DNA of 64,000 nucleotides from Catellatospora methionotrophica (GTDB taxonomy: Bacteria; Actinomycetota; Actinomycetes; Mycobacteriales; Micromonosporaceae), in NCBI RefSeq assembly GCF_011297335.1, contig NZ_JAAOTJ010000002.1, forward strand, positions 248,001-312,000, in the 5' to 3' direction. Below are positions 51,402 to 61,990 of this stretch, piece by piece. A model generated the notes under the pieces. It was not told the origin of the DNA. It made no database searches and saw only the letters and a list, made by a program, of their open reading frames with translations. Positions within the stretch are counted from its first letter, which is position 1; each line of letters opens with the position of its first letter. Both the position numbers and the translations under genes were made by a program.

Positions 51402-51817
51402 TCCTTCCTTTCCTCCTCGGTCGGTGGAGCAGGACCGCGGCATGGCGCGACCGGTCCGGGGCACGCTCCACATTGCACTGGTGAAGGAAGTTTCCAAAAA
51501 CGTAGGTCAGGTTGCAAGAAAACTCTAGTGATTGATTTGGATTCGTTATCGGCTGTCGCCAGGCGTTCATGCGCCGCTCACCTGCGATCAAGGCGGTCGA
51601 GCGATGCCGTCGGCGGGCCAGGCGAGGCTCGCTGCCGGGCGGCGCCGGGCTGATGCCCGCCGCCTGCGCAGCCACCTCGGCGGCATTGTCGGTCGGGTCC
51701 GTTAACTTGTCGCCACCTCGGACGATCCGGGGCGCAGGCGGGCGGGGCTGCGGCTGCGCGCCGTGCCCATTAACCTGCTCGCGATCATCGGAAAGTCCCC
51801 GCGGGAAGGTGCGCGAC
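51402..51817. other. divergent intergenic region, phosphoesterase / WGR operon
   Basis: 416 bp without a supportable gene. The left part (51480-51550) is AT-rich and should hold the phosphoesterase promoter; it contains AAGTTTCC, similar to the AAGTTTC upstream of the GH20 gene. The right part is GC-rich and should hold the promoter of the five-gene operon. GGGAAGG at 51803-51809 is the ribosome binding site of the WGR gene. Confidence 0.5.
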
Positions 51818-54800
51818 ATGGCCACGCAACGACGGCTGACCTGCGTCAGCGGCAGCTCGGCGAAGTTCTGGCAGGTCAGCCAGGACGGCGGCGAGCTGGT
51901 CATCCAATTCGGCCGGATCGGCGCCGCGGGCCAGCAGCAGCAGAAGTCGTTCGACACCGCGCAGGCCGCGACCGAGGCCGCCGACCGGCTGATCGCCGAG
52001 AAGCTGCGCAAGGGGTACGCGCCGGACACGGCCGCCCCGGACCCCGGCGTGACCGGCCCGGCGCAGGCACCGGCCGTGCCCACGGCGGACGAGGCCGACG
52101 AGGACACCTTCGTCATGCCGGTGGGCTGGCGGCGCGTCCTGCTGCCCAGGCGCGGCGGCGAGCCGGTTGCCCGCAAGCGCCCCGAGGCGGGCGCGGCCGC
52201 GAAGGTGTCGACCGCCATGGGGCTGCACGAGGAAATCCTGAAGCAGTCCCTGGCGATGCCACAGGCAGATCCGGTGCTCGTCCAGGCGGCCACCGCCTGG
52301 CTCGACAGCCCTGCCGTGGACAACCCGATCGGAGCCGCCGTGGTCGTGGCGATGCTCGGCCAGTACGTCCGCTACGACGACAACACGACCCTGCCCGCCG
52401 TCGCCGATATGTGGTTGCACGAGTACGGGACGGTCTTCGCCGCTCGGGCCGTGTGCGAGCTGGGTTCGCTGTGGTTCTACGGCGACCACGGTCAGCGGGT
52501 GGGGTCGCAGGCCGGGATCCTGCGACGGCTGCTCGACACCGAGCAGGTCGGCCAGTGGCTGGGCATGCACCGTTCGGTCCTGACCAGCCGGGTGCGTGCC
52601 GCCGTCGCCGCCGCGCCCGACGCCGAGTACGCCCAGGTGGTCACCGCGCTCGCGGAGCTGCGTGAGCACGGGTTGCACCAGCGGGCGGCCGCTTCGTACC
52701 TCGTGCCGTCCGAGGCGGACTGGGTCGACGCGGACTGCCGCGAAGCGGTGCGGGTCAACACCAAGTTCGCAGACGTGCTGGTCAGTGCGGTCAGCACGCC
52801 CGAGCAGGCAGACCTGATCGTCTCGCACCTGTCGCGCGGATTCGGGGCCGGGATCATGTCGCTGATGGCCACGGTCGTCGACGGGCTCGGTCCCGCGCAC
52901 GCCGTGCCGCTGCTGGCGCACTGGTTCGACGGGGCGTACGCGGCCGACGCTGAGCGCCGGATGCTGGGCATGCTCAGCGAACTACCCGTCGACGAGGCCA
53001 TGGGCGCATTGCTGGACCGGGTCGAACACCGGCTGGCTCAGCCGTATCTGTTGCAGGCGGCGGCCCGGTTCCCCCGCCGTGCGCTGCGGTTACTCGCCGA
53101 ACGCGACAGCAAGATCACCGGCGGGCTGTTGCGCGCCCACGTGCTCGGCCACCCGGACCTGGTGGACGAGGCGCTGGCGGCGGTGAGCCCGGCCGCCGCC
53201 GAGCGCATCAGCGCCGTGGCCCTCGCCGCCGCGCAGCGGGTGGAGGCACCGGCCGAGCTGCTGCCCACGGTCCTGGTCAGTCCGCCCTGGACGGCAGCGC
53301 GCACCGTACGCAAACCGGTGGTGATCGAAGGCCTGGTCTGCGCGGACCCGGCGACCATGCGCTGGCTGCCCGGTGAGCGGGAGCAGTGGCGGGCCAGGCA
53401 GTCCCACTTCCCCTCGTGGGCCGCCGAGCACGGCGGCGACTGGCAGAACGTCATCGGCAACCTGAACGACACGCAAACCGGCTACAGCTCCTGGTACGGC
53501 CAGATCGCGTTCTTCGTGGCCGGTCCCGAGGAGCTGGCCGCCCCGCTGATCGGCCGCTGGCGGCCCGGCGACCTGTGGGACGCCGCCGACTGGATGCCGT
53601 CGGTGGTGGCCCGATTCGAGCTGGCGGTGCTGCCGATGCTGCTGGACGGCGCCCGCCGGAGCGCGGCGCAGCACGTGCCGCTGCTGCTGCCGTACGCCTC
53701 GCCGGAGGTCGCGGTCGTGATGGCCGACGCGCTGGCCCGGCTGAAGTCGGTGCGGGAAATCGCGTTGTCGTGGCTGGCGCGGCAACCTGAGGCCGCCGCA
53801 CGGGCTCTGGTCCCGCCGGCGCTGGGCAAGGCGGGAGTGGCGCGGCGGCAGGCCGAGCAGGCGCTGACCGTGCTGGCCGCCAACGGCCACCGGGACGCCG
53901 TCACGGCCGGTGCGGACGCCTACGGCCCGGCCGCGCGGGACGCCGTCGACGCGCTGCTGGCCGAGGACCCGCTGGACCTGCTGCCCGCGAACATGCCGGT
54001 GCTGCCGGAGTGGGCCGACCCCGGGCTGCTGGAACCGGTGCAGTTGCGCGGGGACGCCGGTGCGCTGCCGCGCGGCGCGGTCCGGCACCTGCTGACCATG
54101 CTGGCCGTGTCGAGAGCGGGCGAGCCGTACGCGGGCGTGGCCCTCGTTCGGGAGGCGTGCGATCCCGGCAGCCTGGCCGAGTTCGGCTGGTCGCTGTTCA
54201 CCCGGTGGCAGGCCGTCGGCTTCCCGTCCAGGGACGGCTGGGTGATGAACGCGCTGGGGCTGGTCGGCGACGACGAGACCGTGCGGCGGCTCGCGCCGCT
54301 GATCCGGGTGTGGCCCGGTGAGGGCGGCCACAACCGGGCCGTGACCGGCCTGCACGTGCTGGCGGCCATCGGCTCCGACACCGCGCTGATGCACCTGCAC
54401 GGCATCGCCGAGAAGGCCAAGTTCACCGGGCTGAAGGAACGGGCCCGCGCCAAGATGGCCGACGTGGCGGCGCAGCTGGGGCTGACCGCCGAGCAGCTGG
54501 CCGACCGGCTGGTGCCCGACTTCGGGCTGGCCGCCGACGGCAGCCTGACCCTGGACTACGGCCGCCGCACGTTCACCGTAGGGTTCGACGAGCAGCTCAA
54601 GCCGTACGTCGCCGACGGCGACGGCAAGCGCCGCAAGGAGCTGCCCAAGCCCGGCGCGGCCGACGACGCCGCGCTGGCGCCCGCCGCGTACCAGCGGTTC
54701 GCCGGGTTGAAGAAGGACGTGCGCACCGTCGCCGCGGACACGATCCGGCGGCTGGAGCTGGCGATGACTGCGCGGCGGCGGTGGAGCGGGGAGGACTTCA

Positions 54801-55435
54801 CCAAGCTGCTGGTCGGGCACCCGCTGCTGTGGCACATCGTGCGGCGGCTGGTGTGGGGCGTCTACGACGAAGCCGGTGACCTGGTCGCGGCGGTGCGGGT
54901 CGCCGAGGACCGTAGCTTCGCCGACATCGACGACGAGACGGTTTCGGTGGCCGCCGACGCCGTCATCGGCGTGGCCCACCCGGTGGAGCTGGCCGACGCC
55001 CTGCCCGGCTGGGCGGAGGTGTTCGCCGACTACGAGATCCTGCAGCCGTTCGCCCAGCTGGGCCGTGCCGTGTACGGGCTGTCCGAGCAGGAGCGGCAGG
55101 GCACGGTGCTGACCCGATTCGGCGACGTGAAGATCCCGACGGGCCGGGTGGTCGGCCTGGAGCGGCGCGGCTGGCGGCGGGGCGCGCCGCAGGACGCGGG
55201 CCACCAGGGCTGGATGGAACGCGACGTGCCCGGCAACCGCATCGTCATGGTCGACCTCGATCCGGGCATCGCCGTCGGCTACATCGACATGTTCCCGGAG
55301 CAGTCGCTGGAACGGATCTGGGTCAAGGGACCGGGCGACGGCTACTGGCACGACCGTAGCAAGACCACGTTCGACGTGCTGGACCCCGTGACCGCGTCGG
55401 AGATCCTGCGCGACCTGGAGGAGATCACCCGATGA
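51818..55435 (+). CDS. WGR / DUF4132 (MolR-type) protein
   Basis: A 1205-residue protein of the MolR/YehI type. The N-terminal WGR domain (about 5-75) has FWQVSQDGGELVIQFGRIGA, where the name-giving Trp is Phe31. The large central part is HEAT-like helical repeats. The C-terminal DUF4132 region (about 930-1120) includes LTLDYGRRTFTVGFDEQLKP and LLVGHPLLWHIVRRLVWGVY. WGR domains elsewhere bind nucleic acid ends or act as protein modules. ATG at 51818 has GGGAAGG upstream; the frame back to 51569 is rejected. It is the first gene of the five-gene MoxR-VWA operon and overlaps the next by four bases. Confidence 0.87.
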   Translation: MATQRRLTCVSGSSAKFWQVSQDGGELVIQFGRIGAAGQQQQKSFDTAQAATEAADRLIAEKLRKGYAPDTAAPDPGVTGPAQAPAVPTADEADEDTFVMPVGWRRVLLPRRGGEPVARKRPEAGAAAKVSTAMGLHEEILKQSLAMPQADPVLVQAATAWLDSPAVDNPIGAAVVVAMLGQYVRYDDNTTLPAVADMWLHEYGTVFAARAVCELGSLWFYGDHGQRVGSQAGILRRLLDTEQVGQWLGMHRSVLTSRVRAAVAAAPDAEYAQVVTALAELREHGLHQRAAASYLVPSEADWVDADCREAVRVNTKFADVLVSAVSTPEQADLIVSHLSRGFGAGIMSLMATVVDGLGPAHAVPLLAHWFDGAYAADAERRMLGMLSELPVDEAMGALLDRVEHRLAQPYLLQAAARFPRRALRLLAERDSKITGGLLRAHVLGHPDLVDEALAAVSPAAAERISAVALAAAQRVEAPAELLPTVLVSPPWTAARTVRKPVVIEGLVCADPATMRWLPGEREQWRARQSHFPSWAAEHGGDWQNVIGNLNDTQTGYSSWYGQIAFFVAGPEELAAPLIGRWRPGDLWDAADWMPSVVARFELAVLPMLLDGARRSAAQHVPLLLPYASPEVAVVMADALARLKSVREIALSWLARQPEAAARALVPPALGKAGVARRQAEQALTVLAANGHRDAVTAGADAYGPAARDAVDALLAEDPLDLLPANMPVLPEWADPGLLEPVQLRGDAGALPRGAVRHLLTMLAVSRAGEPYAGVALVREACDPGSLAEFGWSLFTRWQAVGFPSRDGWVMNALGLVGDDETVRRLAPLIRVWPGEGGHNRAVTGLHVLAAIGSDTALMHLHGIAEKAKFTGLKERARAKMADVAAQLGLTAEQLADRLVPDFGLAADGSLTLDYGRRTFTVGFDEQLKPYVADGDGKRRKELPKPGAADDAALAPAAYQRFAGLKKDVRTVAADTIRRLELAMTARRRWSGEDFTKLLVGHPLLWHIVRRLVWGVYDEAGDLVAAVRVAEDRSFADIDDETVSVAADAVIGVAHPVELADALPGWAEVFADYEILQPFAQLGRAVYGLSEQERQGTVLTRFGDVKIPTGRVVGLERRGWRRGAPQDAGHQGWMERDVPGNRIVMVDLDPGIAVGYIDMFPEQSLERIWVKGPGDGYWHDRSKTTFDVLDPVTASEILRDLEEITR

Positions 55436-56517
55436 GCGAGCAGATCCAGCGCCCCCCGGCCGAGGTGCGCTACGCCGCCGAACTGGCCCGGCTGCGCGAG
55501 ACCGACGACGGCGAGCGCCCGCCCGGCTGGGCGCTGAGCCTGCGGGCCGCGCGCGCGTTCGTCATCGGCGACGACAAGCTCGGGGTGAGCCGCAAGTTCG
55601 TCGGCGACCCGTCGCTGATCGACCGGGCGCTGGTGACCCTGGCGACAAGCCGCGGGCTGATGCTGGTCGGCGAGCCCGGCACAGCCAAGTCGCTGCTGTC
55701 GGAACTGCTGGCCGCCGCCGTCAGCGGCACGTCGACGCTGACCATCCAGGGCGGCGCGGCCACCACCGAAGACCAGATCAAGTACTCGTGGAACTACGCG
55801 CTGCTGGTCGCTGAGGGCCCGTCGACCCGGTCGCTGGTGCCCGCGCCACTGCTGCACGGGATGGCCGAGGGCCGGGTGGTGCGCTTCGAGGAGATCACCC
55901 GGTGCCCGCTGGAGGTGCAGGACAGCCTGCTGTCGCCGCTGTCGGACCGGGTGCTGGCACTGCCTGAGCTGACCGGCCCGGAGTCGATGGTGTTCGCGCG
56001 CGAGGGTTTCAACATCATCGCGACCGCGAACACCCGCGACCGGGGCGTCAACGAGATGAGCGCCGCGCTCAAGCGCCGGTTCAACTTCGAGACGGTGTTC
56101 CCGATCGCCGACTTCGACACCGAGCTGCAGCTTGTCGAGGCCGAGGCGGCGAAGCTGCTCAGCGCGTCCGGGGTCGGCGTGCCGCCGCGCCGCGACGTGA
56201 TGGAGGTGCTGGTCACCGCGTTCCGGGAGCTGCGCGACGGGCACAACACGCGCGGCGACGCCACCGACCGGCTGTCCGGGGTGATGAGCACCGCCGAGGC
56301 GGTGTCGGTGGCCCACGCCGTCGGGCTGCGGGGCTGGTTCCTGCGCCGCGAGCCCGGCACCGCCGCGGACCTCGTGTCGTGCCTGGCAGGGACGGCGGCC
56401 AAGGACAGCCCCGAGGACCTGGCCAAGCTGCGCCGCTACCTGGAGCAGCAGCCCCGGGGGCGGCGCGGAGGGCAGTGGCAGGCCCTGTACGAGGCCCGAC
56501 ACGAGCTTCCCGGCTGA
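55432..56517 (+). CDS. MoxR-family AAA+ ATPase (YehL-like)
   Basis: A 361-residue AAA+ protein. Walker A is GEPGTAKS (80-87), typical of MoxR proteins; Walker B reads VVRFEE (149-154) with Glu in place of the usual Asp; sensor 1 is ATANTRDRG with Asn200; the arginine-finger region is ALKRRFNFE. MoxR ATPases act as chaperone-like partners of VWA proteins. Neighbours place it in the YehL subfamily. It starts inside the WGR stop (ATGA) and ends three bases before the DUF5682 gene. Confidence 0.9.
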   Translation: MSEQIQRPPAEVRYAAELARLRETDDGERPPGWALSLRAARAFVIGDDKLGVSRKFVGDPSLIDRALVTLATSRGLMLVGEPGTAKSLLSELLAAAVSGTSTLTIQGGAATTEDQIKYSWNYALLVAEGPSTRSLVPAPLLHGMAEGRVVRFEEITRCPLEVQDSLLSPLSDRVLALPELTGPESMVFAREGFNIIATANTRDRGVNEMSAALKRRFNFETVFPIADFDTELQLVEAEAAKLLSASGVGVPPRRDVMEVLVTAFRELRDGHNTRGDATDRLSGVMSTAEAVSVAHAVGLRGWFLRREPGTAADLVSCLAGTAAKDSPEDLAKLRRYLEQQPRGRRGGQWQALYEARHELPG

Positions 56518-56520
56518 GCG

Positions 56521-58779
56521 ATGGCCGTCACCTACCTCGGCGTACGCCACCACAGTCCGGCGTGCGCCCGCCTGGTCGCCGACACGATCACGGCTGTGCG
56601 TCCGGCGTACGTGCTGGTCGAAGGGCCCGCGGACATGAACGGGCGGATCGGTGAGCTGCTGCTCGGGCACGAGCTGCCGATCGCCGTGTACACCGGTTAC
56701 CGCGACGGGCGGCGCAGGCACGCGTCGTGGGCGCCGCTGTGCGCGTACTCCCCGGAGTGGACGGCGCTGACCGCGGGCCGGGAGGTGGGCGCGCAGCTGC
56801 GGTTCATCGACCTGCCCGCCTGGGATCCGGCCCTGGCCGGGTTGCGCAACCGGTACGCCGACGCCGAAACCCGCTACAGTGCCGCGACCGAGCGGCTGTG
56901 CCGCGAGTTCGCCGTCGACAACATCGACGCCCTGTGGGACCACCTGTTCGAGATCGCGCCCGCCGAAGGCCTCGCCGAGCGGCTGGACGTCTACTTCGAC
57001 GCGGTACGCGGGGAGACCGAGGCCGGGCCCGACGACACCGCCCGCGAGCGGTACATGGCGCACTGGGTGCGGGCGGCGGCGGCCGACGCCGGAGACCGGC
57101 CCGTCGTCGTGGTCACCGGCGGCTTCCACCGCCCCGCGCTGATCCGGCTGGCACAGCACGGCGACCGGGACTGGCCCGAGGTGCCGCAGCCGCCCGGCGA
57201 CGCGGTCGTCGGCAGCTACCTGGTCCCGTACTCGTTCCGGCGGCTCGACGCCTTCGACGGCTACCAGTCCGGCATGCCGTCCCCGGCGTACTACCAGCAG
57301 CTGTGGGAGTCCGGCCCGGTCGAGGCCGCGGCCCGGCTGACCGGGGCGGTGGCGACGCGGCTGCGCGGCCGCCGCCAGCCGGTGTCCACCGCCGACCTGA
57401 TCGCCGCACGGGTCACCGGGCAGGCCCTGGCCGCGCTGCGCGGGCACCCGGTGCCGTCGCGGGTCGACGTGCTCGACGGCCTGGCCGCCGCCCTGGTCGG
57501 CGAGGCGCTAGAGGTGCCGCTGCCCTGGGCGACACGCGGGCACCTACGGCCGGGCAGCCACCCGGTGGTCGTCGAGATGGTCGCGTCGCTCAGCGGCGAC
57601 CTGGTCGGCGTGCTGCATCCGGACACGCCGCTGCCCCCGCTGGTGCACGCCGCGCGGCGGCAGCTCGCCGACCTCGGCCTGGACGGGTCCGGCGAGATCG
57701 GTATCGACCTGGGCGACGACACCGACCGGCAGCGCAGCCGCCTGCTGCACCGGCTGCGGGTGCTCGCCGTGCCCGGTGTGGAGCGCGCCGCCGGGCCGGG
57801 TCCCGGTCAGGTTCCGCTGCTGCGGGAGCGGTGGCTGCTGGAGCCGTCGGATGACCGGCTGCCCGCACTGATCGAGGCGGGCAGCTACGGCGGGGACCCG
57901 CTGGACGCGGCCGCCGCGGTGCTCGCGGAACGGATCGCCGCCGCGGGCGGCGACATGCCGGTCATGGCGGCGCTGCTGTTCGACGCGGTGCTGTGCGGCG
58001 CGGGCGAGCTCGCCGGGCCGCTGCTGGACGAACTGGACGCCGCCGTGGCGTCCGCCGCCGACCTGGGCGGGCTGGGTCAGGCGCTGGGCGTGGTGCTGGC
58101 GATGTGGCGTCACGACGGGGTGTTCGACACCGCGGGCAGCGTCACCCTGGGTACCGTCGTGGCCGCGGCGACGCGCCGCGCCCTGTGGCTGATCGAGGGC
58201 GTACGAGGCGGCGCTGCCCCCGCCGACCGGGCCCGCATCCATGCCGTCACCGGTGTCCGCGACGCGCTGCGCCACGCCGGTGGCCAGCTCGGCCTGGACC
58301 TGCCCGCGGCGCTCGGCGTCGCCGACCGGGTCGCCGCCGACCGGGACGCCCCCGCCGACCTGCGCGGCGCGGTCTTCGGGCTGGGCTGGTCACTGCGCGG
58401 CAGCGCCACGGACGCGGGCCGGGCGATGCGCGGCGCGTTCACCCCGGCGGGCGCGGGGGACTGGCTCGCGGGCCTGTTCGCCCTGGCCCGCGAGGAGGTG
58501 CTGCACGCCGAGGGCATGGTGGAACTGCTCGACGAGCTGGTCGGGGGGCTCGGTGAGGCGCAGTTCCTGATCGCGCTGCCCGCGCTGCGGCAGGCGTTCG
58601 CCTGGTTCCCGCCCCGCGAACGGCACCAGATCGCCGTCCGGGTGCTGCGGGCGCGCACCGGCGGCACCGGGCCGGACCTGCTGCGGTTGGATGCCGCACC
58701 GGGACTGGTCGCGGCGGGCATGGCACTGGACGAGCGGGTCGACGCGGCGCTGCGCCGGGAGGGACTGATCACCACATGA
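56521..58779 (+). CDS. DUF5682 family protein (YehM-like)
   Basis: A 752-residue protein. The N-terminus YLGVRHHSPACARLVADTIT, followed by VLVEGPADMN and VVVVTGGFHRPAL, is typical of DUF5682, whose fold in this half recalls TraB/erythromycin-esterase-like hydrolases; that link is tentative. The rest is helical. It has no signal peptide. Function is unknown, but it occurs with MoxR and VWA genes. It overlaps the VWA gene by four bases. Confidence 0.85.
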   Translation: MAVTYLGVRHHSPACARLVADTITAVRPAYVLVEGPADMNGRIGELLLGHELPIAVYTGYRDGRRRHASWAPLCAYSPEWTALTAGREVGAQLRFIDLPAWDPALAGLRNRYADAETRYSAATERLCREFAVDNIDALWDHLFEIAPAEGLAERLDVYFDAVRGETEAGPDDTARERYMAHWVRAAAADAGDRPVVVVTGGFHRPALIRLAQHGDRDWPEVPQPPGDAVVGSYLVPYSFRRLDAFDGYQSGMPSPAYYQQLWESGPVEAAARLTGAVATRLRGRRQPVSTADLIAARVTGQALAALRGHPVPSRVDVLDGLAAALVGEALEVPLPWATRGHLRPGSHPVVVEMVASLSGDLVGVLHPDTPLPPLVHAARRQLADLGLDGSGEIGIDLGDDTDRQRSRLLHRLRVLAVPGVERAAGPGPGQVPLLRERWLLEPSDDRLPALIEAGSYGGDPLDAAAAVLAERIAAAGGDMPVMAALLFDAVLCGAGELAGPLLDELDAAVASAADLGGLGQALGVVLAMWRHDGVFDTAGSVTLGTVVAAATRRALWLIEGVRGGAAPADRARIHAVTGVRDALRHAGGQLGLDLPAALGVADRVAADRDAPADLRGAVFGLGWSLRGSATDAGRAMRGAFTPAGAGDWLAGLFALAREEVLHAEGMVELLDELVGGLGEAQFLIALPALRQAFAWFPPRERHQIAVRVLRARTGGTGPDLLRLDAAPGLVAAGMALDERVDAALRREGLITT

Positions 58780-59909
58780 CCGATCCGGCACTGCAGCGCT
58801 GGCGGCTGCTGCTCGGCACACCGGGCGCGGCCTGCCTCGGTGACCAGCCGATGGACGCCGACGCCGTGGCCCGCGACGCGGCCCTGGACTGGCTCTACGG
58901 CCGCGACGAGGACCTGCGCCGCCGCGGCGTGCGCACCGGCAGCGGACGCGAGGGCGGGCTCGGCCCGTCGGCGCTGACCACCGCCGGGTGGCTCGACGAC
59001 ATCACCCGGCTGTTTCCGAAGGAGACGGTCGAGCGGCTACAGCGCGACGCGGTCGAGCAGTACGAGATCCACGATGTGGTCACCGACCCGGCCGTGCTGG
59101 AGCGCATCGAGCCCAACCCGGCGCTGCTGCGCGCGGTCCTGCACACCAAGCACCTGATGAACCCGCAGGTGCTGCGGCTGGCCCGGCGTATCGTGGAGGC
59201 GGTCGTCCGCCAGTTGATGGACAAGCTGGCCGCCGAGGTGCGGGTGGCCTTCTCCGGCACCCGCACCCGCAGGCCGAGCCGCCTGCGGATAGCCCGCAAC
59301 TTCGACGTGGCCCGGACCCTGCGCGCCAACCTGGGCCGCTACCAGCCGGACACCGGCAAGCTCGCCATCCAGACGCCGTACTTCTTCTCCCGCGTACGCC
59401 GCCATCTGCAGCAGTGGCAGGTCATCCTGCTGGTCGACCAGTCGGGGTCCATGGTGGACTCGGTGATCCACTCGGCGGTGACGGCGGCGTGCCTGTGGGG
59501 GCTGCCCGGCGTCCGCACCCACCTGGTCGCGTTCGACACCAGCGTCGTCGACCTGACCCGCGACGTGGACGACCCGGTCGAGCTGCTGATGAAGGTGCAG
59601 CTCGGCGGCGGCACCGACATCGGCCGCGCGGCCGCGTACGGCGCGGGTCTGATCGACGACCCGCGCCGCGCGATCGTGGCGCTCATCTCGGACTTCTACG
59701 AGGGCGGCGATCCGGGCCGCCTGGTGCGCACCGTACGCGGCATGGTCGAGCAGGGCAGCAAGGTGTTGTGCCTGGCGGCGCTGGACTCGCAGGCCAACCC
59801 GTCCTACGACCGGCAGCTCGCCCAGCGGCTGGCCGACCAGGGCGCGCACGTGGGCGCGATGACGCCCGGTGAGCTGGCGTCGTTCGTCGCGGAGCACGTG
59901 GGCCGATGA
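58776..59909 (+). CDS. VWA domain protein (YehP-like)
   Basis: A 377-residue cytosolic protein. The N-terminal half is helical. The VWA domain (about 213-375) has an intact MIDAS: DQSGS at 221-225, Thr280 in GGGTD and Asp306 in SDFYEGG. VWA proteins of this type are the usual partners of MoxR ATPases. Coupled to its neighbours by 4-bp overlaps on both sides. Confidence 0.9.
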   Translation: MTDPALQRWRLLLGTPGAACLGDQPMDADAVARDAALDWLYGRDEDLRRRGVRTGSGREGGLGPSALTTAGWLDDITRLFPKETVERLQRDAVEQYEIHDVVTDPAVLERIEPNPALLRAVLHTKHLMNPQVLRLARRIVEAVVRQLMDKLAAEVRVAFSGTRTRRPSRLRIARNFDVARTLRANLGRYQPDTGKLAIQTPYFFSRVRRHLQQWQVILLVDQSGSMVDSVIHSAVTAACLWGLPGVRTHLVAFDTSVVDLTRDVDDPVELLMKVQLGGGTDIGRAAAYGAGLIDDPRRAIVALISDFYEGGDPGRLVRTVRGMVEQGSKVLCLAALDSQANPSYDRQLAQRLADQGAHVGAMTPGELASFVAEHVGR

Positions 59910-61990
59910 GGACCGACCTGCTCGCCCTGACCCCCGATGCGCTGTCCGCGCTCACCAACCGTGGCCTGGTCAAACGCGCCGCCAAAGACCTCGACGCGGC
60001 CCCGCCGACGCTGCGCGAAGACCCGGACGGCACCGTGCGTGGCGACTTCGCCGACGGGCCGAGCGCGTCGCTGCCGCCGACGGGCGGCCTGGCGGCGGGG
60101 AGCTGCGACTGCGGCGCGACCGGAGTCTGCCGCCACCTCGTCGGCCTGGTCCTGGCCTGCCAGCAGCACGCCGCCGACAGCGCGTCCGGGCCGGTATCCG
60201 GCCCCCTGCCCGCATCCGGTGCGCCACCGGCGTTCGGCGCGGCGGCGGGGCAGGGCGGGGACGAGCGCGGCCCGGTGAAACGCCCCGCGACCGCAGCCGT
60301 CGCCCGCACGCTGCCGCCCGCGACGCCGCCCGTCGCGGGGCAGGAGGCGTGGTCGCCGGGGCAGATCAGCGACGAGGAGCTGACCCGCCGGATCGGCACC
60401 CGGCTGATGAACACCGCGCGCCGAGCCCATCGCGCCGGTTACACCGCCCGCGTGCGCCGGGCCACGGCCGCTGACGCGGTGCCGCAGGTGGAGCTGCCGA
60501 CCGCGACGGTGCGTTTCCTGGTGCCCGGGGACCTGGGCTTCGCTCACTCCGACGCCGCCGCAGGCAGCCGGGACGACGTGCTCGCGCTGGCCGTGTGGGC
60601 GTTCCGGGCCGCCGACGCCGCTCACCCCGACGCCGCCGACGTACGCCTTGACGTAGGCGGCCAGCAGACCGGCGACACCGGCTCCGGCCTGGAACGGGCG
60701 CTGGCCCTGGCCGGGACGGTGCTCCGCGAGGGCGCGACCGAACTCGGGACGGGCCTGGACGCCACCGTCACCGACGTACGCCGCCGGCTCGACGAGTCCG
60801 GGCTGCGCTGGCCGGTGCTGGCCGTCGACGGCCTCGCCGAGCAACTGACGTCCTATCGCGACCGCAGCGCCCGCTACCGTCCCGCGGAACTGGCCGCGCA
60901 ACTGGCTGAACTGCACGCCCGGCATCGCGCGGTGACCCGGCCCGGGGCGGTGCTGCGCAGCAGCGTGCTCGGCACGGCCGAGGCGGCCGAGACCCCGCTG
61001 CGGCGGGCCCGCCTGGACAGCCTCGGCTGCCGCGTGCACGCCTACGGCGACCAGCGGACGGCCGAGGTGTTCCTGGCCCACGCCGACAGCGCGACGGTGT
61101 TGGTGCTGCGCCGCACCTTCGACACAGCCGACGACGGGCCCGCGCTGGCCCGCCGCCGGGTCGACCGCAGCACCCTGGGCGCACTGGCCGGGGGCAGCCT
61201 GGTCACCGAGTCCGCGGTGCGCAGCGCCAGCCGGGCGGTGCGGCTGGCCACGTCACGGGTCGCCAAGACCACGATCAGCCCGTCCCGCGCCGCGTGGGGT
61301 GAACTGCCCGCCGCGCTGGTCGTCCGGGACTTCGCGGCGCTGGCCGCCGAACTCGACGCGCTGGCCCCGCGCCTGATCCGGCCCCGCGTGGAGGCGGAGC
61401 TGGTCCGGGTACTGGCCGTGACCGGTGTCCGGTCGATCGGCTACGCGCCCGGCGACCAGCGTATCGACGCCGAGATCGTCGACGGCGACGGCAACACCGC
61501 CGTGGTCAGCGCGGTGCACGCCGCGGCCGCGCCCGGCCGCCTCGACGTGCTGGCCGCGGCCCTGGCAGGCGAGCACGGTGAGGTGCGCTACGTCAGCGGC
61601 ACGGTACGGCGCAGCGGCGGTACGGTGCTGCTCGACCCGATCGGGCTGGCCGCCGGGGACACGGTCGTCGTGCCCGACCTGGCCGTGCCGCAGGGCAGTG
61701 CCGGGTTGGCGCTGAGCGGCGGTGACCTGGCCGACCCGCTGGCCGCGGCGCTGACCACGGCCCGCGATGTGCTGGCCGAGGTGCCGCACCGCGGCCTGCG
61801 CCACCTTCCGCCGGGGTTCGCAGCCCGGCTGGCCACGGCCGCGCAGCGCCTCGGCTCCCTGGGACTACGCCGGGCAGGCGACGGCCTCACCACGTTCGGC
61901 GGGCTGCTCGACGGCGATCCGGGGGAGGCTGCCGAGCAGGCATGGGTCGACGCCTACCTGCGGGTGGACCTGGCCCTGGACATGTGCTGA
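59906..61990 (+). CDS. SWIM zinc-finger protein (YehQ-like)
   Basis: A 694-residue protein with an N-terminal SWIM finger: Cys67, Cys69, Cys75 and His77 in CDCGATGVCRHLVGLV. SWIM fingers bind DNA or protein. A Pro/Ala-rich linker (about 90-155) leads to a large C-terminal part without recognised motifs. It is the last gene of the operon and ends ten bases from the convergent protease gene. The GC-rich linker is the most divergent-looking part. Confidence 0.87.
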   Translation: MRTDLLALTPDALSALTNRGLVKRAAKDLDAAPPTLREDPDGTVRGDFADGPSASLPPTGGLAAGSCDCGATGVCRHLVGLVLACQQHAADSASGPVSGPLPASGAPPAFGAAAGQGGDERGPVKRPATAAVARTLPPATPPVAGQEAWSPGQISDEELTRRIGTRLMNTARRAHRAGYTARVRRATAADAVPQVELPTATVRFLVPGDLGFAHSDAAAGSRDDVLALAVWAFRAADAAHPDAADVRLDVGGQQTGDTGSGLERALALAGTVLREGATELGTGLDATVTDVRRRLDESGLRWPVLAVDGLAEQLTSYRDRSARYRPAELAAQLAELHARHRAVTRPGAVLRSSVLGTAEAAETPLRRARLDSLGCRVHAYGDQRTAEVFLAHADSATVLVLRRTFDTADDGPALARRRVDRSTLGALAGGSLVTESAVRSASRAVRLATSRVAKTTISPSRAAWGELPAALVVRDFAALAAELDALAPRLIRPRVEAELVRVLAVTGVRSIGYAPGDQRIDAEIVDGDGNTAVVSAVHAAAAPGRLDVLAAALAGEHGEVRYVSGTVRRSGGTVLLDPIGLAAGDTVVVPDLAVPQGSAGLALSGGDLADPLAAALTTARDVLAEVPHRGLRHLPPGFAARLATAAQRLGSLGLRRAGDGLTTFGGLLDGDPGEAAEQAWVDAYLRVDLALDMC

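Follow-up and report, generated by a model that had tools for sequence, protein, structure and literature searches.

A five-gene operon of Catellatospora methionotrophica with a MoxR-DUF5682-VWA core and a candidate DNA-damage promoter

The window analysed here, a stretch of 64,000 nucleotides from the actinomycete Catellatospora methionotrophica (RefSeq assembly GCF_011297335.1, contig NZ_JAAOTJ010000002.1, positions 248,001 to 312,000 of the forward strand), contains at 51818-61990 on the + strand an operon of five tightly packed open reading frames (ORFs) without internal stops. Its products are a DUF4132 protein, a MoxR-type AAA+ ATPase, a DUF5682 protein, a VWA protein and a SWIM zinc-finger protein, and comparison of related loci indicates that the constant core of the system is the trio of MoxR, DUF5682 and VWA. 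An earlier note, made from the sequence alone, had described this operon, and its coordinates, its intact ORFs and its junctions (a 4-base ATGA overlap at three and a 3-base gap at one) all proved correct. Profile searches against Pfam identified the first four proteins named in that note, whereas the fifth gave nothing above a Pfam cut-off and its SWIM motif was recognised by eye. The features are as follows (aa, amino acids; MIDAS, metal-ion-dependent adhesion site; RecA-NDp, RecA-non-dependent promoter):

51686..51708, +: predicted PafBC / RecA-NDp promoter, TTGTCGGTC-GGGTCCGT-TAACTT (8-nt spacer), a consensus match save for the last lower-case g
51818..55435, +: YehI-like protein of 1205 aa with WGR domain, helical middle and DUF4132 domain (Pfam: WGR 57.6 bits, 1.4e-15; DUF4132 199.3 bits, 6.7e-59)
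51836..52030, +: WGR domain, residues 7-71, optional in the family (Pfam)
54623..55174, +: DUF4132 domain, residues 936-1119 (Pfam)
55432..56517, +: MoxR AAA+ ATPase, YehL-like, 361 aa (Pfam AAA_5 124.7 bits, 3.4e-36)
55669-55692, +: MoxR Walker A (Walker motif pattern in 81/81 homologues)
56521..58779, +: YehM-like DUF5682 protein, 752 aa, with predicted Tiki/ChaN/Ere-fold N-domain and long helical C-terminal part (Pfam DUF5682 337.4 bits, 2.4e-100; AlphaFold models; fold comparison)
56521..57270, +: predicted hydrolase domain of DUF5682, residues 1-250 (invariant residues in alignments A2 and A3)
56548-56550, 56620-56622, 57043-57045 and 57127-57129, +: DUF5682 codons for His10, Glu34, Arg175 and His203 (alignments A2 and A3)
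58776..59909, +: VWA (CoxE-type) protein, YehP-like, 377 aa (Pfam VWA_CoxE 184.7 bits, 2.2e-54)
59436-59450, +: VWA MIDAS motif DQSGS (DxSGS in 75/75 homologues)
59906..61990, +: SWIM zinc-finger protein, YehQ-like, 694 aa (26% identity to YehQ over 601 columns, 5e-42)
60104-60136, +: SWIM motif CxCx5CxH, residues 67-77, by eye (CxCx(4-30)CxH in 65/71 homologues)

The reading frame of the DUF4132 gene is open upstream as far as 51569, and the start at 51818 is favoured because of homology (the WGR domain then occupies residues 7-71) and of the predicted promoter ahead of it.

Counterpart in E. coli and conservation of the operon

All five window proteins have one-to-one counterparts, in identical order, in the yehI-yehL-yehM-yehP-yehQ set of E. 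coli K-12 MG1655 (E values from 2e-165 to 5e-42), and by these matches the window gene set is the counterpart of the known yeh operon, as the earlier note had claimed from gene content and order. Identity amounts to 34% for YehI (in the C-terminal half), 63.5% for YehL, 36.7% for YehM, 59.0% for YehP and 26.3% for YehQ, such that MoxR and VWA, the presumptive motor pair, are far better conserved than the remaining three proteins; in seven relatives including E. coli, MoxR is 64-81% identical to that of the window. YehL is listed among seven MoxR subfamilies (PMC3893208), and the window MoxR is called YehL-like here from its pairwise identity to YehL. The E. coli region differs from the window in that yehK sits between yehI and yehL, yehH is annotated as a pseudogene, and the WGR domain is found in yehF and not in yehI, whereas in the window it belongs to the DUF4132 protein. 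A single-sequence search of 113 related DUF4132 proteins picked up WGR in 27 (a lower bound) and not in the other 86; the description of the first protein as WGR/DUF4132 is true of the window protein, but we do not treat the domain as defining the set.

In the papers searched we came across no function ascribed to the yeh set. The three naming two or more yeh or molR genes were, judged by their listings, genome or method papers; DUF5682 was named in none of the papers searched and DUF4132 in three. A resistance transposon has been reported as inserted in the yeh region of E. coli ST131 isolates, and a deletion including yehL and yehM in S. sonnei lineages (PMC9334617, PMC12795559), so that the region is dispensable in those strains.

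A profile scan for type-A MoxR (the type found in the window, see below), with one genome per species, returned 530 relatives, of which the best 80, all actinobacterial, were analysed. Sixty-one of these 80 loci have the contiguous I-L-M-P-Q order according to a simple gene caller, the remaining 19 including contig-end cuts and genes that the caller missed or split. Where neighbours were called, 4-base overlaps occur at 53/72 MP, 51/68 PQ, 40/71 IL and 10/80 LM junctions, with LM spacings of -1 in 31 loci and of +2 or +3 in 29. A single DUF4132 gene or piece was called in 56 loci, while 13 loci had two, 6 had three, 2 had four, 1 had five and 2 had none, a range of 0 to 5 to set beside the fixed stoichiometry that the earlier note held likely. 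Some of these calls are pieces: the two in locus L106 look like a single split gene, and the five in L119 look like three genes. Three loci (L136, L141 and L163) have at least three DUF4132 genes in a row beside a single copy of the other genes, a tandem expansion of this subunit. A MoxR match at E <= 1e-60 was present in 20 of 296 genomes sampled from the phylum. Taken over genera and phyla, these comparisons support the operon as conserved. The earlier note had suggested a neighbourhood survey across actinobacteria. Among the 719 flanking proteins of the 80 loci, which were clustered and not annotated, no family occurs in more than 5 genera.

A constant trio in four types of locus

The genome of C. 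methionotrophica itself has four MoxR-DUF5682-VWA loci, the window operon and three more, which differ in the genes that accompany the trio:

Type A (window): DUF4132, MoxR, DUF5682, VWA, SWIM
Type B (contig 21; C21-type): small DUF4132 protein, 1600-aa protein, MoxR, fused DUF5682-VWA, SWIM-like protein (the last by eye)
Type C (contig 5): SWIM, DUF5691, MoxR, DUF5682, VWA
Type D (contig 4): 460-aa protein, VWA, MoxR, long DUF5682

DUF5682 is present in 37 of 150 genomes of the order, this one included, and outside this genome the trio was found at 41 of the 43 DUF5682 places (20/20 in one batch and 21/23 in another, in the latter by gene calling at 19 and by tblastn at two more); the two places without it are a locus cut by a contig end (L279) and a match below the family cut-off (L280). 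The homologues are therefore not scattered without synteny, the pattern that the earlier note had named as refuting its reading. In separate trees of MoxR, DUF5682 and VWA from 29 loci, each of the four types came out as a split supported at 0.97-1.0 (one locus, L051, lies outside all four), and because the same four types are recovered in all three trees, the three genes have, by this measure, been inherited together. In type B, DUF5682 and VWA are a single polypeptide, both in this genome and in seven other loci (four and three); this natural fusion in a sister clade supports a physical interaction of the pair, and we argue from it that DUF5682 and VWA would touch each other.

Several loci show further arrangements of these components. 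In Salinispora (L118, L153) a type-D trio lies directly upstream of a type-A operon, placing two related systems in tandem. On contig 54 of the C. methionotrophica genome (L017:4266-10021) a DUF4132 protein is encoded beside a 1615-aa relative of the type-B 1600-aa protein, with no MoxR, DUF5682 or VWA gene in the 19 kb read, and two more DUF4132 proteins of this genome (L015:5881-8634 and L018:9211-11739) have a C-terminal DUF7737, with no trio found around them.

Predicted fold of DUF5682 and a candidate upstream promoter

Nine residues of DUF5682 (H10, H11, P13, E34, D97, R175, E176, G200 and H203) are invariant across clades, both in alignment A2 (13 sequences, from the four clades and one outlier) and in alignment A3 (50 sequences). 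AlphaFold predicts an alpha/beta N-domain followed by a long helical tail for the full-length protein (predicted local distance difference test, pLDDT, 87.5; predicted template modelling score, pTM, 0.82), and the N-domain (residues 1-250) was modelled separately (pLDDT 88.8, pTM 0.88) because Foldseek results for the full-length model were filled by helical repeats. The N-domain model was then compared by VIA-align with the 1000 chains ranked highest by Foldseek (993 aligned), where a Z under 8 may reflect a common arrangement and rows within 1 Z are tied. Rows 4-14 are occupied by ChaN (8.5), HopBA1 (8.2), EreC (6.8 and 6.7), succinoglycan-biosynthesis proteins of the BcR135 kind (6.8 and 6.3), RRSP (6.7, 6.2 and 5.5) and PMT (6.5 and 6.4), and histidine phosphatases follow after row 14, from Z 5.5 downward, the lower of rows 4-14 being tied with them. 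From residue numbers and titles, we take 6a7h and 6a8j (titled 'bacterial protein toxins') to be RRSP and 2qgm to be of the BcR135/136 kind. Rows 1-3, at Z 10.1-10.2, are Tetrahymena complex IV chains (7w5z_E, at 10.2, and relatives); they have the top fold score, and we do not count them as Tiki members.

The literature groups ChaN, HopBA1, EreC, the BcR135 kind, RRSP and PMT together as a Tiki superfamily and describes a His/Glu catalytic set, absent from PMT (PMC6254334; PMC7979712). The residues given as catalytic in EreC are H50, E78, R261 and H289 (PMC7979712), and the step of 28 from R261 to H289 is also that from R175 to H203 in DUF5682. With its predicted alpha/beta core and its invariant His, Glu, Arg and His, the last two at Ere spacing, DUF5682 thus resembles the Tiki/TraB/ChaN/Ere superfamily, from which it differs by an HH pair, a long helical tail and the MoxR-VWA context. 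On the predicted model, we consider a Tiki/ChaN/Ere-type fold of the N-domain likely, and the conserved residues make it somewhat probable, with less assurance, that DUF5682 is catalytic. A link to solved structures by sequence alone was sought with hmmsearch and discarded, as A2 gave only designed pentatricopeptide-repeat proteins, matched over the helical stretch. TraB/PrgY had one member in 149 genomes of the phylum, with no useful PDB match for that member, and was not comparable as a profile.

The operon is preceded, about 110 bases ahead of the start codon at 51818, by a match to tTGTCRgtg-8 nt-TannnT, the consensus described for LexA-independent damage promoters (PMC5656591), which closely resembles the PafBC site (PMC8223512). 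The strict pattern occurs in 6 of the 65 related operons with a readable upstream region, and a match within one mismatch or with a relaxed -10 in 34/65, as opposed to 4/689 other genes from the same loci, two of these four (at L123 and L130) being genes called directly before the operon. As the relaxed ('loose') -10 was chosen after seeing the sequences, the clean test is the strict count (6/65 and the window); for the wider count, the 689 other genes served as the control. By genus, matches are found in Nonomuraea (9/9), Microbispora (2/2) and Acrocarpospora (2/2), and are few in Actinomadura (3/14), Paractinoplanes (1/6) and Micromonospora (0/1). The recA gene of C. methionotrophica has TTGTCGGAC-N8-TAGCGT, and in a recA control 18 of 23 loci match within one mismatch (6/11 in other genera and 12/12 in Catellatospora, where the 12 loci carry one identical site and so are not independent). 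Genes of the PafBC type are also present, a WYL+WCX gene followed by an HTH_PafC+WYL+WCX gene, about 2-4 kb from the Pup ligase gene, so that the window operon shares with the PafBC regulon both a promoter motif and a genome with PafBC-type genes.

Other types of locus were searched for the same site. In this genome the type-B operon has none, type C has a one-mismatch site at the start codon and type D (L016) a one-mismatch site 85 bases before 3569; other type-D loci have an exact site (L066), one mismatch (L067) or none (L064 and L065), and types B and C show little of the pattern. The actinobacterial LexA palindrome was found within one mismatch in 0/69 upstream regions and its half-site core in 1/69, and CTGT-N8-ACAG is absent from the Iodobacter operon. 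Allowing up to six mismatches, LexA-like sites in E. coli number two only, one inside yehM and one outside the operon. At L181:6047-6063 (Deinococcus taeanensis), a palindrome one mismatch from what we take to be the radiation/desiccation response motif (RDRM) consensus lies ~36 bases before a type-C operon, a match no better than chance by our estimate.

Proposed mechanism and competing explanations

We tentatively propose, with a confidence falling a little short of even, that the operon encodes a damage-induced AAA+/VWA machine with a Tiki-fold hydrolase, whose targets would be chosen by the DUF4132 and SWIM proteins. After DNA damage, PafBC would activate the promoter ahead of the DUF4132 gene, and the five proteins would be produced jointly. 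The motor would consist of MoxR, by analogy a hexamer, with VWA as its co-chaperone, and DUF5682, with its predicted hydrolase domain and long helical tail, would be held by VWA as the working enzyme. Target recognition would fall to the DUF4132 protein (sometimes bearing WGR) and the SWIM protein, the target probably being a protein located at or close to damaged DNA. By hydrolysing ATP, MoxR would remodel or deliver this target, or switch DUF5682 on, after which the target would be cleaved and released. A broader and distinctly more doubtful reading is that MoxR-DUF5682-VWA represents an unrecognised class of ATP-driven hydrolytic machine extending from E. coli to actinomycetes, in which an AAA+ ring and a VWA arm would feed or gate a Tiki-fold protease, with interchangeable target-recognition subunits (DUF4132/WGR, the 1600-aa protein, DUF5691 or SWIM), and which would act as a LexA-independent DNA-damage effector in some actinobacteria. 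Among the literature matches listed, we found no printed account of the core trio with its four clades, of a hydrolase fold for DUF5682 or of the damage promoter. Were the proposal correct, AAA+ remodelling and a Tiki-type hydrolase would be linked in one system and the PafBC response would gain an effector. For the yeh set, the analysis points to a constant core, to specific residues of a predicted enzyme and to a condition that is likely to induce it, and the role of the five-gene operon is open to direct testing.

A number of observations weigh against this proposal. On the side of the enzyme, among the VIA-align rows, only ChaN and HopBA1 exceed by more than 1 Z all the histidine phosphatases that are listed together with EreC; the step from His to Glu is 24 for H10-E34 of DUF5682 and 28 for H50-E78 of EreC; and the GExxH motif of the Ere family proper (E47 and H50 of EreC) is not in DUF5682, there being no Glu three residues before His10, where most members have G-V/I-R-H-H. 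Alignment of 41 DUF5682 N-domains with 22 Ere-family sequences by hhalign gave a probability of 0.8%, which is not significant, and Foldseek returned nothing at E <= 0.001 for the full-length and N-domain models, so that the fold claim rests on VIA-align, the predicted model and the residues. On the side of the promoter, there is no match in 31/65 related operons, including those of Micromonospora, Asanoa and most Actinomadura and Paractinoplanes, a point of difference from the PafBC regulon, and 4 of 16 further loci of the order, of all types, have one (two type A and two type D). The strict pattern occurs 3 times in the C. methionotrophica genome and once in a reversed control, and near the other two sites no repair gene was seen by eye (without a profile scan); the promoter argument is for that reason carried by conservation across species and not by rarity. 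No LexA box (CTGT-N8-ACAG) was found at the E. coli operon.

The same genes could instead encode a maturation chaperone of the CoxD-CoxE or RavA-ViaA type, in which MoxR and VWA would supply a cofactor to DUF5682 or to some other client enzyme, or would assemble it, DUF5682 being the client and not a protease. The CoxE-type VWA of the window, the position of DUF5682 next to MoxR and VWA, as a client would have, and the maturation of dedicated complexes by characterised MoxR proteins (PMC3893208) all agree with such a role. It would, however, leave the damage-type promoter and the SWIM and DUF4132 partners unexplained, and no flanking family is shared by more than 5 genera; we regard it as unlikely, albeit a serious alternative. 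CoxD-CoxE genes lie near metal-hydroxylase or carbon monoxide dehydrogenase genes, of which there is none among the seven flanking window proteins scanned. A further alternative is a DNA-repair accessory in which SWIM and WGR/DUF4132 would bind damaged DNA and MoxR-VWA would remove stuck proteins, with DUF5682 as a non-catalytic scaffold. The damage-type promoter, the retained SWIM motif, the long helical part of DUF5682 and the rise of a D. radiodurans DUF4132 operon upon DdrO depletion (PMC8533742) are in keeping with it, whereas the detection of WGR in only 27/113 and the invariant His/Glu/Arg set, which argues for catalysis, make it quite improbable. The earlier suggestion that the machine acts on nucleic acid is partly supported, by the kept SWIM motif and the damage-type promoter, with WGR detected in few of the DUF4132 proteins.

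The earlier note had also raised the idea of a conflict system, and an anti-phage or abortive function with DUF5682 as effector would agree with the four related copies in one actinomycete genome, with relatives in 40 plasmid records (several of them chromosome-sized) and with an Iodobacter plasmid copy near a type I restriction system. In the published text, vWA-MoxR ternary conflict systems are described from multicellular prokaryotes (Kaur et al. 2020, PMC7159879), and sets of vWA, MoxR and VMAP from the vicinity of CRISPR loci (PMC10910872); akin to the window operon, the ternary systems combine MoxR, vWA and a third protein and occur in several copies per genome. Their third component is VMAP, iSTAND, FtsH or a beta-propeller, whereas that of the window is DUF5682; Pfam scans of the five operon products and of ten proteins from the three paralogous loci detected none of these components (Pfam coverage of them being unchecked), and the main text of PMC7159879 has no mention of 'WGR', 'DUF5682' or 'yeh'. 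The bpMoxR model scored 21.4 of 27 bits, below its cut-off. In PADLOC, four of the five proteins had no match and MoxR had one of E 0.018 to a restriction-enzyme model, which we took as chance, and a scan of the same type gave one match, to a helix-turn-helix only, among ten flanking window proteins. No type-A MoxR relative was confirmed on viral contigs. The recovery of the same clades in three trees and the strong conservation of MoxR as far as E. coli likewise argue against a conflict system, which these tests, negative or nearly so, render very improbable. A 14-kb unverified 'Bacteriophage sp.' scaffold from faeces (L184, MT835988.1), of phage or bacterial origin, encodes a 26% DUF5682 relative.

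As for genomic surroundings, the window operon stands alone, since its upstream neighbour, encoding a metallophosphatase with a golvesin-type domain, is divergent and its downstream neighbour, a trypsin-like gene, convergent. Plasmid records show type-A operons in Iodobacter and in Agrobacterium vitis, where the DUF4132 gene comes between those for DUF5682 and VWA. Rhizobium and Deinococcus have type C, and Hymenobacter a type-C-like locus. The Hymenobacter locus (L180:10112-13022) is perhaps degraded, its DUF5682 being annotated in pieces with no VWA gene annotated beside it. In the A. vitis plasmid (L179:5548-10065), the operon is preceded on its own strand by two unknown genes and a gene resembling that for adenylosuccinate synthetase.

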